26,387 nt of DNA from a virus. The stretch is taken from positions 1-26,387 of IMG/VR virus record IMGVR_UViG_3300046313_000544. One strand, 5' to 3'. Below are positions 1,342-20,650 of this stretch, piece after piece. Position 1 is the stretch's first letter, and every line of letters starts with the position of its first letter. A model generated the notes under the pieces. It did not search any database and was not told where the DNA came from. It saw nothing but the letters and a program-made list of their open reading frames with translations. A program made the position numbers and the translations under genes.

Positions 1342-1417
1342 TGGAGCAGTGACCGAGGTTCGAACTCGGGAATAGTGGTTTTGAAAACCACGCCCTTACC
1401 ACTAGGGTTACCACTGC
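1342..1417 (-). tRNA. tRNA-Gly with anticodon UCA, reading UGA
   Basis: Complete cloverleaf. The acceptor stem is GCAGTGG/TCACTGC with one G-U pair. The D arm is 3 bp plus a mismatch. The anticodon stem is GTGGT/ACCAC with loop TTTCAAA, giving anticodon TCA at 34-36. The variable region is 5 nt. The T arm is CCGAG/CTCGG with canonical loop TTCGAAC. The 3' CCA is encoded. G1-C72, C2-G71, discriminator U73 and C35 are the features bacterial glycyl-tRNA synthetase uses, so glycine charging is expected. This matches the UGA=Gly decoding seen throughout the window. Trp or Sec identity is less likely given the conserved glycines encoded by UGA. Confidence 0.95.
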
Positions 1418-10877: not shown

Positions 10878-11246
10878 TTACAATGGTTTTCAATCTTTTC
10901 ATACTGAATAGTATATTTCATCATGCTTCCACATATCTATTCTTAGTTTTATCGCCTCATACGTCAATGCTTTCTTTTGATCTCTTCCCATATTCGCAAT
11001 AGCTATTTTAAACTTATCACGGATATACTTTGGTTGACTTGGAAGTGAAAAATACATAAATCTATCAATTGTATCCGCTTCTCCATATCGAGCAATCTGA
11101 TAGTCAGTAAGTATCTCTTTACCTACAGATATATCTATTTTCTTATCTCTTGCTCGTTTCATCTCTTCGAGAGTACATTCCTTGTAGAATCGCTCTCAGA
11201 GTTTGTCTTCGATCCAAATAAGTGGTTGTGTTGTAGTGAGTTCCAT
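10878..11246 (-). CDS. Hypothetical protein downstream of the replication initiator (122 aa)
   Basis: ATG at 11246 to TAA at 10878-10880; three UGA-glycines, two near the C-terminus (YYSVGKDGKPL) and one at LGERF. Mostly helical and charged: LEEMKRARDKKIDISVGKEI, then LPSQPKYIRDKFKIAIANMG. It sits where phages often carry a helicase loader or similar replication partner, but no Walker motif is present and I do not recognise the family. Confidence 0.65.
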
Positions 11247-11255
11247 AAATAAAAG

Positions 11256-12047
11256 TTAAAAAGTACGTGATTCTATTGGTTTTACAGACTGCTTCATCGA
11301 GTTCGCCACCTTCTTCCATTTTTCGTGAAAGTCTTTAGCACTTCGTATCTTAGCAGAATACTCATTTTGATTCGAGTACGCTATAATGCTTCTGATAGCT
11401 TTTTCTTCGTATTCCTCCGATGAGTCTTTTATAAACTCTCACCAGTCTGCCTGTCTCTTAGCTATGATCGTGGCACGTCTTCGTTCCTCCGAGTTATTGT
11501 CGTATAGGAATCCTTCTTGTTTCACTTGGTCTTTTATGATATCTACGATTCTCTGTGTTCCAACGTTTCTTTTATCTAGGATAATATCTGTATTTTCTAA
11601 AACAAGAGCTTGCTCTATTACCGTAGGTAATGTATCTGTAGTATATTCATTATTCTCCTTATATTCCTTATTGTTTTTATTAGTTGTTGTTGTTCGTTTG
11701 TTGTTCGTTTGTTGTTCGTTTGTTGTTCGTTTGTTATCTTGCGTGTTGTATGACTCCCAGTTATTCAATGCCAGAGTGGTATACTCGTTTGTTGAATAGT
11801 GTGTTATCTCTCAAGTTTCTTTTAATTTTTGTATAGCAGTCCGTATTTGTTGCCTAGAAAGTCAGGTTTCTAAAGATAAATGTTCAATAGATGTAATAAA
11901 CTCTCAAGGCTTTACTACCTTTCCTCTCCATTTCGCTTCTTTAAAATTACATTTCAGAAGTATATGAAAAAAAAGTACCTTTGTAGGTATATGTGTATAC
12001 CACTCCCAATCGCATATCTTCTTATGCAGTTGTATAAATCATTCCAT
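11256..12047 (-). CDS. Replication initiator, phage replisome-organizer type
   Basis: A 263-aa protein with the layout of phage replisome organizers (DnaD-like pathway). An N-terminal winged-helix domain covers residues 1-~100 (LHKKICDWEWYTHIPTKVLF, KWRGKVVKPGEFITSIEHLS, LETGLSRQQIRTAIQKLKET). An Asn/Thr/Gln-rich linker (~102-125) follows, then a C-terminal helical domain (QRIVDIIKDQVKQEGFLYDN to IRSAKDFHEKWKKV). Such proteins bind repeats in or near their own gene and load the replicative helicase. Five UGA-glycines. It is the first gene of the leftward operon, behind a structured leader and promoter. Confidence 0.85.
11692..11735. repeat. Four tandem 11-bp repeats (candidate origin iterons)
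   Basis: Four perfect copies of GTTCGTTTGTT head to tail (plus-strand reading). They encode the low-complexity linker of the replication initiator (NNKRTTTT region). Phage initiator genes of this type often carry their binding iterons internally, so this is a candidate origin. The unit is not a multiple of three, so loss or gain of a copy would shift the frame. Confidence 0.75.
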
Positions 12048-12059
12048 ATTTTATATATT

Positions 12060-12190
12060 AAAAATCCCCTAGTTGCGACCTTGCGAGTTGACTAGGGGAC
12101 GTACACTTCATAGCATCGAGGCTATGTTTCATTTTCCTTTCGGAGATTTTCAAACTAAAGTGTTATGTAGGGATTGCAAGGTCGCTACTT
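12060..12190 (-). promoter_or_regulatory. Structured leader of the replication operon (pseudoknot and terminator-like hairpin)
   Basis: Minus-strand transcript. An 8-bp stem CCCCTAGT/ACTAGGGG (12091-12098 with 12066-12073) is followed by ATTTTT, like an intrinsic terminator. Its loop holds GCAAGGTCGC, perfectly complementary over 10 bp to GCGACCTTGC near the 5' end (12176-12185 with 12075-12084). This gives an H-type pseudoknot or a switch between pairings. Between them is a hairpin CATAGC/GCTATG inside ACACTT/AAGTGT. A 24-codon frame (12061-12135), ATG behind GAAAGGAAA, ends TTT-TAA in the U-run, so it may be a leader peptide. Confidence 0.75.
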
Positions 12191-12197
12191 ACAACAA

Positions 12198-12225
12198 AGT
12201 ATATCACTTCTCTCACAAAATGCAA
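12198..12225 (-). promoter_or_regulatory. Main leftward promoter (replication operon)
   Basis: Minus-strand TTGCAT (12220-12225), 16-bp spacer, TATACT (12198-12203). Transcription would begin near 12190, right at the start of the structured leader. The twin of the rightward promoter at 12770-12797. Confidence 0.8.
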
Positions 12226-12252
12226 ATAAAAAATAAGAAAAGTATTTTTATC

Positions 12253-12280
12253 TTGCTATATCGTGTGATATAAATATAAT
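12253..12280 (+). promoter_or_regulatory. Rightward promoter for structured RNA 1
   Basis: TTGCTA (12253-12258), 16-bp spacer, TATAAT (12275-12280). Divergent from the leftward promoter, with 27 bp between the -35 boxes. It has the consensus -10, unlike the TATACT of the other main promoters. Confidence 0.7.
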
Positions 12281-12286
12281 ACTCAT

Positions 12287-12562
12287 GTCTTTCCGACTGA
12301 ATATTCGTATTCAAAATTATTTGCTTTTCTATTCACTCTAATGGGTAGATAATAAGGCTGGCATACAGTATAAGTAGACCACCTGCTGTATGTGAGAGAT
12401 CACCTGAAATGGGGGTTAGTCCTGATTGATCATCGTCTGCCATCGTGTACTGATAGCTTAGAGGCTGGGTACATGGTGATTATAAACTACTTACTACTGA
12501 AAGGGCTAATAGTAAGATTACACCAATATACTCCGCTCGAAAGAGGACTGGAGTATTTTTTT
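12287..12562 (+). ncRNA. Structured RNA 1 of the control region
   Basis: About 275 nt from promoter to terminator with no credible gene. Hairpins in order: GAATA-TTCG-TATTC (12299-12312), CATACAG/CTGTATG (12362-12368 with 12386-12392), a bulged CCAT..GTAC/GTACATGG stem, CTTACTA/TAGTAAG (12490-12496 with 12510-12516), then the terminator. An 18-codon frame (12284-12340, MSFRLNIRIQNYLLFYSL) near the 5' end could be a leader peptide. No family recognised; a regulatory RNA or antisense-type control RNA is plausible. Confidence 0.65.
12528..12562 (+). terminator. Intrinsic terminator of RNA 1
   Basis: 7-bp stem ATACTCC/GGAGTAT capped by CTC-GAAA-GAG (a GNRA tetraloop), followed by seven T. Confidence 0.85.
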
Positions 12563-12590
12563 ATTGATTTTTCTATAGAATAGATATAAT
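12561..12590 (+). promoter_or_regulatory. Rightward promoter for structured RNA 2
   Basis: TATAAT at 12585-12590; the -35 is either TTATTG (18-bp spacer) or TTGATT (15-bp spacer). It directly follows the RNA 1 terminator. Confidence 0.5.
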
Positions 12591-12596
12591 ACTTAC

Positions 12597-12760
12597 GAGC
12601 CTATGAAAAGTGGCGTGGAGATCCTTCCCATGGAAGAGTCTATGAAGCGCCCTTTAGTAGTAACTCTACTCCTCGGAAGGCACAGCTCTCGGAGTGTAGC
12701 CGATCGAAAGAATAAGCGAGGTAAGATAATTCTCCACTGCGGATGCGGGGGAGTTTTTTT
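12597..12760 (+). ncRNA. Structured RNA 2, riboswitch-like layout
   Basis: About 165 nt ending in a terminator. A 7-bp helix GTGGAGA/TCTCCAC (12615-12621 with 12731-12737) closes a multi-branched fold with CTTCC-CAT-GGAAG, AGTAG/CTACT and CCTCG/CGAGG stems. The 3' strand of this closing helix is also the 5' strand of the terminator, so the two are mutually exclusive, as in transcriptional riboswitches or antitermination leaders. The next gene begins at 12872. A 66-codon frame on this strand (from 12603) runs through the terminator and is not believed. Confidence 0.65.
12732..12760 (+). terminator. Intrinsic terminator of RNA 2
   Basis: GC-rich hairpin CTCC-A-CTGC/GCGG-G-GGAG with GGAT loop, followed by seven T. 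Confidence 0.85.
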
Positions 12761-12769
12761 ATTTATCTT

Positions 12770-12797
12770 TTGCATTTTACAAATAAATTCATATACT
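12770..12797 (+). promoter_or_regulatory. Main rightward promoter
   Basis: TTGCAT (12770-12775), 16-bp spacer, TATACT (12792-12797). Boxes and spacing identical to the leftward promoter at 12198-12225. It would drive the small-gene block and terminase genes. Confidence 0.8.
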
Positions 12798-12805
12798 AAA
12801 TAACA

Positions 12806-12853
12806 GAAGCAAGTAACCGTGAACATTTGCTTTTGCCTTTTACTTCTTCACGG
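12806..12853 (+). promoter_or_regulatory. Pseudoknot-capable leader of the rightward operon
   Basis: GAAG-c-AAGTAA (12806-12816) pairs with TTACTTCTTC (12840-12849), and CCGTGAA (12817-12823) with TTCACGG (12847-12853). The order a-b-a'-b' gives an H-type pseudoknot, or two competing hairpins, at the very 5' end of the transcript. Confidence 0.55.
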
Positions 12854-12871
12854 GATTAAAAGGCTTTTTAT

Positions 12872-13309
12872 ATGTTTTCTACTTCCCTTCTCTCACTTAT
12901 CGTTATCCATACGATACCAGTCGGACTCATGCTTCCTTGACTCTGAACAGCTTGCGGTACATGACCATACGGCGGATACTACGACAACGTAAACAAAGTA
13001 GTATATGTCTGTGAACTTAAAGATAAATCCGATGTATCTAATCAGATGATAGTCGATCACGAAATTTCTCACTTTATCCAAGATAATCTCCTCACAGAGA
13101 AGGACTGGGCAGACTATCAAAAGGAATGGGCAAAGTCTATGACTAAAGGCAAGACACAGTTTCTCAGAGACTATGGAATGACGAATGCAAAGGAGGGGTT
13201 CGCAGAGGATGCAATGTACCTACAGACAGGCCAGTATAAGAACCCTAGAGATCCACAGGTAAGAAAACGAGTCGCTATAGTCCGAAAAGCACTTAACCGT
13301 CTTAAATAA
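12872..13309 (+). CDS. Small secreted HExxH metallopeptidase-like protein
   Basis: A 145-aa protein (ATG 12872, TAA 13307-13309). An N-terminal hydrophobic segment (residues ~4-21) suggests export. HEISH at 63-67, in a VDHEISHF context, is the zinc-protease motif. Glutamates at 108 and 112 (KEGFAEDAM) could be the third zinc ligand, as in gluzincin-type minimal proteases. Three UGA-glycines fall between residues 23 and 31, so the standard code would lose the N-terminal half. It is the first gene of the rightward operon. Substrate unknown: host envelope or phage protein processing are options. A weak AAAAGG lies 9 bp before the ATG. Confidence 0.7.
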
Positions 13310-14584: not shown

Positions 14585-14992
14585 ATGAGAGCAGATAAAG
14601 CAACAAACATAGCTAACTGAACAAAAGCATTAGTAGAAAATCCCCTTCAGACAGAAAGAGATCTTGCTGATTCTATTTGAGTTAGCAACTGAACAGCACA
14701 CAATATCAAGAAAGAAATTGAGCAAAATTGAGCAAAGGACGATCGGATCATTGGTATAACGGATACAGACCTATCTATCTTGACGATAGGACAACGAGAG
14801 ATCGAAAGACGACTCAATGATAAGGAAGAGGTAGAAAAGATGCGTACGGTCGAAATATCGCAGGTTATCAAAGAATCAACTGCAAGATATTCTCTTTTCC
14901 GTTGAAATGCTACTGATAGTGAGTGAGGATTGAAAGAAAACAATATTAGAAATCTTAGTGATGATGCTCTATTAAATATCGTATGACAATAA
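14585..14992 (+). CDS. terS: Terminase small subunit (probable)
   Basis: A 135-aa protein immediately before and overlapping (10 bp) the large terminase. Residues ~22-44 (QTERDLADSIGVSNGTAHNI) form a helix-turn-helix, as in small terminases that recognise packaging sites. A charged coiled middle (REIERRLNDKEEVEKM) fits the oligomerisation region. Eight UGA-glycines. The name rests on the HTH, the size and the position; the family is highly diverse in sequence. Confidence 0.75.
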
Positions 14993-16434
14993 CTCCAGAA
15001 GAAGCAAAGAAAGAACTTGCAATACGAGAGCTTGCAAGAAGAAGGTTAGCATATTTTACTACATATGTTGACCCTTTTTTCTGACATGAATCCAAGTGAT
15101 ATGTATTCAAACATTTTCACTGAGTTATAACATCCGCAATAGAAAGACTCATAAAATGAGAAATTAAGAAACTAATGATTTCAGTCCCACCACAACACTG
15201 AAAGAGTACAATATCGTCACAGAGAGCCCCTGCATTCGTACATATGCAAGACCCTACACTTAACATTGCACTTGCAAGCTATTCACAAGAACTATCTAAG
15301 TCTCATTTATCGAAACTCAGGCAGATATTGAACTGAGACAGATTTGAGAAGCTCGCAAAAGTAAACCTAATATCAGATACATCTACAAGTTATGAACTCA
15401 AAGAATGAGGCACTTTCCATGCTGTATGAGTATGATGAAGCCTTACAGGAAGACCAGTAGATTTTGGAATCATAGATGATGTACACAAAGACAGAGCAGA
15501 GTATGAATCAGATACAATAAGGAACTGAGTTTGGGATTGGTACACTTCTGTTTGGCTTTCTCGTCTACATAAAGACTCTAAACAATTAGCAGTAATGACG
15601 AGATGGTGAGAAGATGACCTATTCGGGAGAATACTACAATTAGAGCCAAATGAGTGGGAAGTTATCAACATTCCAGTAATTGACTGAGATACAACAATAT
15701 TTCCTGAGAGATTCCCCCTGGACTTCATACAGCAGAAACGATGAGTAATGTGAGAGAGAGACTTCCAAGCTCTTTATATGTGAGACCCGATAAATGAATG
15801 ATGAGGAGATTTTAGAAGTGATTATTTTCAGTATTACGATGAATTACCAAAGATAGAAAAAACCTATATGTTTATCGATCCTGCTATCAGTCAAAAAGAA
15901 TCTGCAGATTATACAGCAATTATAACTGTATGAATAACAAATGATAATAGAATCTATGTTCTTGATATATTCAGGGAAAGAGTTTTACCTGATGAGATTA
16001 TAGATAATGCTATCCGAATAGCCGAAACATACTCAGTGAATGCCATAGGTATAGAAATAGTACAGTATCAGAAGATGTTATCAATAGAACTAAAGAAACA
16101 ACTCATTCTCAGGAATAAGTTTTTTAGAGTATTTGAGATGAGACCATCAGGAGAAAAGGTAGCTCGAATCCGTTCAGTATTACAGCCGAGATATTCACTA
16201 ATGACCATCTTCCATAAAAGATACTGAAAGAATGTCGCTGATATGGAAACAGAAGCGTTAAAGTTTCCAAACTGAAAGCATGATGATATGATAGATGCTC
16301 TTGCAAGTGCTGTGAGTATCGCAAGTATAGAATACTGAGATAAAGTTGAAGTAAAGAAAGTAAATGAAGACGATCCTCTCTGATTATTTGAGGATGAGAT
16401 AGATGAGGTGGAAATAGATTTTTCTCCTTATTAG
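14983..16434 (+). CDS. terL: Terminase large subunit
   Basis: A 483-aa ATP-driven DNA packaging motor with nuclease. Walker A PPQHGKS is at residues 69-75, Walker B FGIIDD at 161-166, and the coupling motif TRWGEDD at 206-212. The RNase H-like nuclease carries D299 (FIDPA), E358 (GIEIVQ) and D438 (HDDMIDAL). Glycine 73 of Walker A, glycine 209 of TRWG and glycine 431 are UGA codons; over twenty glycines in all use UGA. Length and motif order are standard, so it is likely functional. It is followed by the portal promoter. This is the strongest single proof of the UGA=Gly code in the window. Confidence 0.97.
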
Positions 16435-19465: not shown

Positions 19466-20650
19466 ATGGCTAATAATCTCACTTCTGCTGTAAAACAGCA
19501 TTGGGCTGATATGTTCGAGGATAACCTTGAAAAAGACCTTCTCGCAACAGAACTCGTTCGTATGGAATCTATCCCAAACGGAACAACTAAGAATATCCCT
19601 CGTGTAAATATGCAACGAGCGGTATCGTACACAAAGTACACTCCTGTCACATCTAAGGATATCGTAACAGGTAACGACCAGCTCGTTATCAATGAGACTC
19701 CTATGATTCCATTTGAAATCGACCAGATTGATATGGATGACAACTTCCTTGATGTAACTCCTGAGCTTATCAGCGATGCTGGATATATGCTCAAGAGCAT
19801 TATCGATGGTGATGTAATGGGTGAAGCTCTCCAGGCTAACCTCACTTACTCTTCAGTAGGACTTGGAACTGGTACAACTCCAGTTGCCCTCACTCTTACT
19901 GCTGGTACAGGTTACATTCCTACAGTATTCGGAAAATCTCGTGCAAGACTCGTTGCAGCAGGTGTAAACCCAGCTAAGCTCTGTCTCGTAGTTGATTCTG
20001 ATACAGTAGATGAAATCGGAAACCTCGGAATCGAAAAGGGATTCAATGTTGCAGATGAAAGTATCCAGCGTGGATACCGTGGTATGTTTAAGGGAATGAA
20101 GCTCTACGAGTCTAATAACCTTACAGCTACTCGTATTCTCCAGTTTGGAACAGTAGCAAATGCAGGAGGCACAGTAACGATTCTCGGTGTAACATTTACA
20201 TTTGTGGCAACAATCGGTACAACTCCAGGTAATGTACTTATCGGTGCCAATGTAGCTGCTTCTATCGCAAACCTCGTGTCTGCGGTAAATGGAACAGCTG
20301 GTGCAGGAACTACATATATTGCAGTTGAGGATGATTCGGCTCTCGCAGGCGTAACAGCTACAAATCAGACTACAGCTATTCTCTTCACTTCAACAGTTGG
20401 ACGAATGTATGCAAGTTCTAACCTTGCAGCTGTTGCTGATGACTTCGATGCTGAGACAGTCAATCAATGGATTACTGAAAAGGGTGCAGTTCGTCTCGCT
20501 CTTCGTAATTCAGTGAATATCAAGCAGGATTCAGACCCAGATTCTCTCGTTGAGAAATTCAAGGTATGGTCTCGCTATGGTATCAAGACTACAGTTCGCG
20601 GAAAGGCTCGTATGGTTCGTGTTATCACAACTGGTGCAGATGCTGAATAG
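19466..20650 (+). CDS. Major capsid protein, HK97 fold
   Basis: A 394-aa shell protein. N-terminal helical start (MANNLTSAVKQHWADMFEDN); then the capsid pattern TKNIPRVNMQRAVSYTKYTP, IDQIDMDDNFLDVTPELISD and AGYMLKSIIDGDVMGEAL. A P-domain-like part follows (VFGKSRARLVAAGVNPAKLC, GYRGMFKGMKLYESNN). Residues ~235-310 (GTVTILGVTFTFVATIGTTP onward) look like an inserted surface domain of the kind seen in several phage capsid proteins. The end (KFKVWSRYGIKTTVRGKARM) returns to the core fold. No UGA codons; all glycines are GGN, suggesting selection for fast translation. Confidence 0.92.
   Translation: MANNLTSAVKQHWADMFEDNLEKDLLATELVRMESIPNGTTKNIPRVNMQRAVSYTKYTPVTSKDIVTGNDQLVINETPMIPFEIDQIDMDDNFLDVTPELISDAGYMLKSIIDGDVMGEALQANLTYSSVGLGTGTTPVALTLTAGTGYIPTVFGKSRARLVAAGVNPAKLCLVVDSDTVDEIGNLGIEKGFNVADESIQRGYRGMFKGMKLYESNNLTATRILQFGTVANAGGTVTILGVTFTFVATIGTTPGNVLIGANVAASIANLVSAVNGTAGAGTTYIAVEDDSALAGVTATNQTTAILFTSTVGRMYASSNLAAVADDFDAETVNQWITEKGAVRLALRNSVNIKQDSDPDSLVEKFKVWSRYGIKTTVRGKARMVRVITTGADAE

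Follow-up and report, generated by a model that had tools for sequence, protein, structure and literature searches.

Leader hairpins with loops complementary to earlier RNA recur in code-25 phages and may act as transcription attenuators

How are two operons that diverge from one control region regulated in a phage with a recoded stop codon? The virus record analysed here, referred to at its full length of 26387 bases as the window, gives a sensible reading only when TGA is taken as glycine (code 25), and its positions 12048-12871 form the divergent control region. The left operon encodes a DnaD-like loader, a Sak-type annealing protein and a DNA methylase, and the right operon begins with a small HExxH protein and includes the terminase and the major head protein (Table 1). 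Gene control in the phages of Gracilibacteria and Absconditabacteria is largely unexplored, most of the hosts being uncultured, and promoters, terminators and riboswitches go unmentioned in the one paper examined on their genetic code (PMC10746230). The window terminase shares 43% identity with one from a Gracilibacteria genome, a similarity that is compatible with a host in that group and no proof of it.

Searches of annotated phages with the region, at the DNA and the protein level, returned no match. A single IMG/VR contig, L017 (genome G001, 39830 bases), carries a close relative of the HExxH gene, at 77-81% identity, and further code-25 contigs (G002 to G011) were added through a terminase alignment and a DnaD alignment. 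Two other features of the window may be recorded here. A tRNA with anticodon TCA at 1342-1417 (-) is labelled selenocysteine by ARAGORN; the U before CCA and the D-loop suggest that it is a tRNA-Gly(UCA) for the recoded TGA, and no tRNA was found in the other code-25 contigs examined. Within the DnaD-like gene a tandem GTTCGTTTGTT repeat (11690-11735) reads as a Gln/Thr/Asn-rich linker.

A first-pass annotation had placed four promoters and two structured RNAs, each ending in a good terminator, between the operons. Promoter-like sites are indeed present at the four places, and those on the left and right recur at matching places in G001, although the 8 sites that a scan returned are within chance expectation (6.8). 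The left site, in the form TTTGCA..TGTGAGA..TGATATACT, is also found at the matching place in L017, and on the right the pattern common to the window and G001 is TTTGC...CATATAMT. The terminators of the two predicted transcripts, RNA1 and RNA2, are good by eye, but the RNAs are no more stable than shuffled sequences (fold z-scores of -1.22 and -1.18, respectively), and neither has an Rfam match above chance or similar DNA in annotated phages. Their similarity to G001 is confined to the RNA2 terminator, which matches L017 1579-1611 with 97% identity over 33 nt, between dissimilar flanks. A role for RNA1 and RNA2 as regulators that pair with the leaders was rejected, their complementarity to the leaders being not above chance. 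RNA1 and RNA2 may be real transcripts; the label of structured RNAs is not supported. At the position of RNA2 in the relative, upstream of a short open frame, L017 1640-1770 is structured, closed by CTGTCATCA/TGATGACAG and with a fold z-score of -3.77.

Table 1. Features of the divergent control region and of its flanking operons, in window coordinates
Feature	Position	Strand	Details
DnaD-like helicase loader gene	11256-12047	-	left operon gene 1; 263 aa, code 25; PHROG 2514, E 1.1e-21
Left leader of the DnaD-like operon	12051-12192	-	predicted start to ATG; start placed from the promoter-like site
Terminator-like hairpin, left leader	12064-12100	-	loop CAACTCGCAAGGTCGCA, then TTTT(T); hairpin alone -15.2 kcal/mol
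P1, left leader	12176-12185	-	GCGACCTTGC, near transcript 5' end; exact 10-nt complement of terminator loop
Left promoter-like site	12198-12226	-	TTTGCA, 17 nt, TATACT; TG before TATACT; scan; counterpart in G001
RNA1 promoter-like site	12253-12280	+	TTGCTA, 16 nt, TATAAT; scan, 10/12 matches
RNA1, predicted free-standing transcript	12287-12567	+	terminator 12529-12562; from sequence
RNA2 promoter-like site	12564-12590	+	TTGATT...TATAAT; pattern search
RNA2, predicted transcript	12597-12760	+	terminator 12732-12760; from sequence
Right promoter-like site	12769-12797	+	TTTGCA, 17 nt, TATACT; scan; aligns with TTTGCT..TATAAT in G001
Hairpin A, right leader	12805-12834	+	at predicted transcript start; loop holds CCGTGAA (12817-12823)
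Hairpin B, right leader, terminator-like	12835-12864	+	loop holds TTCACGG (12847-12853); then TTTTT 12865-12869
Small HExxH-motif protein gene	12872-13309	+	right operon gene 1; 145 aa, code 25; motif read from sequence
Terminase gene	14983-16434		right operon
Major head protein gene	19466-20650		right operon

The right leader (12805-12871) is kept in one relative, G001. Its two hairpins, A and B, are followed by the ATG of the right operon, 7 nt past the stem of hairpin B. Between the predicted start and the ATG the window and G001 differ at 6 of 75 positions, all of which lie in three paired positions of the two hairpins. In alignment columns counted from 12765 as column 1, the G45-C66 pair of hairpin A is T-A in G001 and the T76-A95 pair of hairpin B is C-G, both of them compensatory changes, and at the top of hairpin A A51/C60 is replaced by G/T (A.C to G.T). 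Random placement of the six changes would put them on three of the 19 stem pairs with a P of 4.8e-6, and would yield at least two such pairs with a P of 0.0019. The stems thus covary at two pairs, and the 7-nt complementarity between the loops, CCGTGAA/TTCACGG, is exact and, like the rest of the loops, identical in both sequences available; the covariation data come from this leader and these two sequences, in which the kissing helix never varies. The comparison with G001 divides what the first-pass annotation had drawn on this side: the loop pair is kept in G001, whereas the helix GAAGcAAGTAA/TTACTTCTTC loses 2 of its 10 pairs there without compensation. Two putative hairpins at 12805-12834 and 12835-12864 are supported in its place. 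In nested folds the loop pair is not favoured (0.02 in the window and 0.26 in the G001 ortholog) because hairpin A forms first, and loop pairing in the right leader would have to take the form of a true kissing complex in order to act. An IMG/VR search with the loop-pair pattern gave the known relative as its only genuine match, the rest being chance. The HExxH homologue in a Gracilibacteria-class genome (L281) was considered as a further bearer of the leader and set aside; it lies inside an operon and has no leader there.

On the left, the pairing GCGACCTTGC/GCAAGGTCGC is exact over ten loop bases (P about 0.001 against dinucleotide shuffles), and the hairpin stem CCCCTAGT/ACTAGGGG is present with T5 after its 3' arm. 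Both helices of the H-type pseudoknot proposed earlier can be drawn as pairings, but a single nucleotide would have to span 10 bp between the long-range helix and the 3' arm. Judged from the sequence, the complete helices are unlikely to coexist, and for this reason they are read as alternatives. For an RNA truncated where the loop ends, folding gives the long-range helix a probability of 1.00, and in the full-length leader the hairpin beats it by about 2.6 kcal/mol in nested folds (-33.4 versus -30.8). The left leader of G001 is different and has an H-type pseudoknot-like element of its own, GGCTAGAC-ACCACAGAGATC-GTCTAGCC-CTCTGTG, so that the left pairing is read from the window. Both left leaders, otherwise unlike, hold an ATCT..CCGAAAGGAA..AT element (window 12120-12145 (-); L017 1170-1215 (-)), possibly a GNRA hairpin.

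The same plan, a 5' segment followed by a T-tract hairpin whose loop is complementary to that segment, occurs in nine leaders of four code-25 phages. These are the left and right leaders of the window, five leaders of G001 (right, 3681, 6844, 9279 and 10929), and one each of G002 and G007. The right leaders of the window and G001 are orthologous; otherwise the sequences are unrelated (eight of the nine mutually so). The loop complementarity measures 7-10 nt, the hairpin ends 5-18 nt upstream of the ATG in eight leaders, and 5-6 T stand at the hairpin end in every leader except that of G007, directly at the stem in seven of nine. Fold z-scores lie between -3.0 and -6.0 for eight leaders; that of the window left leader, computed over a longer stretch, is -2.18. 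The G001 leaders 3681, 6844 and 9279 precede HNH-type endonuclease genes, the G002 leader precedes the DnaD operon and the G007 leader a DnaD-like gene. The leader at 10929, with 7-nt loops TTCGAGG and CCTCGAA, is followed by a stretch that has no start codon for about its first 250 nt. Four of these leaders (G001 3681, 6844 and 9279, and G007) have two upstream segments, P1 and P2, complementary to halves of the loop that overlap, with one match of 9-10 nt and a second of 8-9 nt, and P1 begins about at the predicted +1, at position 6-9 after the -10 hexamer. The G002 match is weak (7 nt, P 0.10 taken alone), and its P1 lies some 30 nt from the predicted start. When the RNA is cut at the loop end, loop pairing is predicted to dominate in four of the nine leaders (window left and G001 3681, 6844 and 9279; mean pair probability of P1 with the loop 0.97-1.00) and reaches 0.76 in 10929; at full length the terminator is predicted to win over the P1:loop helix in the same leaders. 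As far as the open-access literature goes, subscription journals lying mostly outside the search, loop-paired terminators in phage leaders were not found described, and their recurrence across code-25 phages appears to be new.

Two neighbouring observations concern other kinds of element. Between the 10929 leader and a hairpin with a T-rich tail, L038 10990-11290 comprises about 260 nt mostly without a start codon; its beginning resembles by eye the 5' half of a tRNA-Leu, an Rfam scan gave no match, and the stretch is a possible non-coding RNA. In a further code-25 phage, G008, two leaders (L174 15292-15394 and 19389-19512) share a TTTGCAATTTAAGGATTAATTAATATAAT-like promoter sequence and a ACTTGCAAA...AAGCAAA motif between GTTAAG and TTAAC ends, which is a different kind of repeated leader.

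With confidence that is about even, we propose that each leader is a cis-acting transcription attenuator in which the loop of the terminator is complementary to earlier RNA of the same transcript. P1, the 5' segment, would exit the polymerase first, either by itself or as part of a first hairpin's loop, and the emerging terminator loop would pair with it before the 3' arm of the terminator exists. This pairing would delay the closing of the terminator hairpin or prevent it, and so lead to read-through into the gene; with P1 occupied, or the hairpin given time to close, the gene would be shut. What the computation shows is the architecture, its recurrence, the covariation of the right leader and the dominance of loop pairing in the predicted folds of four leaders at loop-end length; from these we infer termination at the hairpins, an effect of loop pairing against them and not in their favour, and some regulation of the outcome. 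We favour read-through as the direction, since the loop can be paired at a time when the 3' arm does not yet exist, although loop pairing could equally stabilise the hairpin instead. A promoter-proximal T-tract hairpin before the first gene, as an attenuator should have, is found in both window leaders and in six of the seven others, and a predicted structure that competes with the terminator is found in the window left leader and three G001 leaders, not in the window right leader. The earlier suggestion that both operons are under RNA-based control by pseudoknot-capable leaders thus survives in outline: on both sides the first gene is preceded by a terminator-like hairpin whose loop can pair with a 5' segment, the right-hand arrangement is conserved with covariation, and the plan recurs in code-25 phages. 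Its particulars fared less well, since the right helix is not conserved, the left leader is unlikely to be a complete H-type pseudoknot, and RNA1 and RNA2 have no unusual structure.

Hairpins and short complementarities are common in the AT-rich intergenic DNA of phages, and the nine leaders might owe their resemblance to chance and selection bias, with only the right leader real, as two ordinary hairpins. Seven-nt matches are frequent, and the scan, which looked for terminator-like hairpins whose loops have a complement upstream, was not blind; its criteria were tuned on the sequences in which the leaders were counted, and the P values are for that reason a guide only. At 8 nt a permutation test whose candidates overlapped and were rich in repeats failed to distinguish the sets (5 observed, 4.6 expected), and another at 7 nt, with loosely chosen hairpins, was not decisive (6 observed, 3.0 expected). 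These early tests were uninformative because their candidates overlapped genes and repeats, and they were superseded by shuffles of each leader and by comparison with other phages. In each two-segment leader none of 5000 dinucleotide shuffles reached two matches of at least 8 nt. Across all the sequence analysed, two-segment loop matches occur at 5 of 944 hairpins in code-25 phages as against 14 of 23369 hairpins in the other phages (Fisher P 6e-4); four of the five are judged genuine, the fifth (L174) being of low complexity, and the 14 are mostly repeats or within genes. No loop match of at least 8 nt was present in the 255 comparable hairpins taken from prophage and host loci of the Gracilibacteria class. 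These counts, together with the covariation in the right leader, make chance a quite unlikely explanation. The architecture was not found in code-11 relatives, nor is there such a leader upstream of the HNH genes of other phages that are related to those behind the G001 leaders. On the code-11 phage contigs L124 (485-520 (+), with a T-tract after the hairpin) and L060 (2705-2669 (-)), loops match two upstream segments in the opposite order.

A pseudoknot or kissing structure just upstream of the gene might instead hide or present the AUG, or bind an autorepressing phage protein. Leader pseudoknots with an action on translation are established in other phages, T4 gene 32 being an example. The short distance from hairpin to ATG in eight of nine leaders would suit such translational control, as would AAAAGG in the 3' arm of hairpin B, 8 nt before the ATG. 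However, Shine-Dalgarno-like motifs before genes are not above shuffles (in the window one of its 32 genes has such a motif, against 0.7 expected), and sequestration of a Shine-Dalgarno sequence was rejected for the absence of its use in these phages. The start codons lie outside the stems in an open T/A-rich stretch; in the window and G002 a T directly precedes the ATG in 75-79% of genes, and the sequence upstream is T/A-rich. Moreover, the T-tracts are left unexplained, and at G001 10929, where the downstream stretch is non-coding, a translational device makes little sense. For these three reasons (no Shine-Dalgarno use, the T-tracts and the leader before non-coding sequence) attenuation is preferred, and control of translation is considered unlikely. 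It is also known that 5' hairpins stabilise bacterial mRNAs, and a 5' end tied into a pseudoknot with a strong hairpin might protect the message from 5'-end-dependent decay, with no switching at all. That P1 begins close to the predicted +1 in all four two-segment leaders agrees with this, but the T-tracts and the two competing segments would have no explanation and P1 of G002 lies well inside the transcript; we regard protection as the least likely of these alternatives.

If attenuation by loop pairing holds, the leaders might represent a modular RNA gate that is independent of sequence, in which the 5' end pairs with the loop of a terminator close to the start codon, in a sequence private to each operon, and in which P1 and P2 of the two-segment leaders exchange on the loop by strand displacement. 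Each operon would then have a self-timed or individually addressable switch, a generalisation that we hold as doubtful. RNA family searches based on sequence would be blind to a leader that keeps its topology while its sequence changes from operon to operon, and other phages may hold candidate gates of this sort that have escaped notice. Because the element is short and can be tested by cell-free transcription, there is no need for host culture.

Several known systems resemble parts of this plan. In the kissing-loop pair of ColE1, RNA I and RNA II, two hairpins are joined through their loops by a helix of about 7 bp, as is proposed for the right leader, whereas the phage hairpins are adjacent within a single transcript and the second resembles a terminator. 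Riboswitches that have a pseudoknot on a terminator platform likewise combine a pseudoknot in the 5' leader with a terminator, but the nine phage leaders have no conserved core sequence and no Rfam match (among covariance models run on the region and its relative nothing exceeded chance, the best E of 2.9 being far below gathering scores), and a metabolite riboswitch is not supported. The put RNA of HK022 is also a phage leader RNA of about 70 nt, and its two stem-loops lie near the start of the transcript; putL and putR resemble each other in sequence and exert their effect on polymerase at distant terminators (PMC9378689). The phage leaders described here, the left and right leaders of the window included, share no sequence, and their second hairpin is itself terminator-like and carries a T-tract, so that the proposed analogy with put-type antitermination is not upheld. 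Attenuators whose antiterminator and terminator exclude each other, such as the rplJL leader of B. subtilis (PMC4538822), also have a promoter-proximal, terminator-like T-tract hairpin before the first gene and an earlier RNA segment that can pair first and compete with it. In the phage leaders the early segment matches the loop of the terminator rather than its arm, often as two segments that match overlapping halves of that loop.
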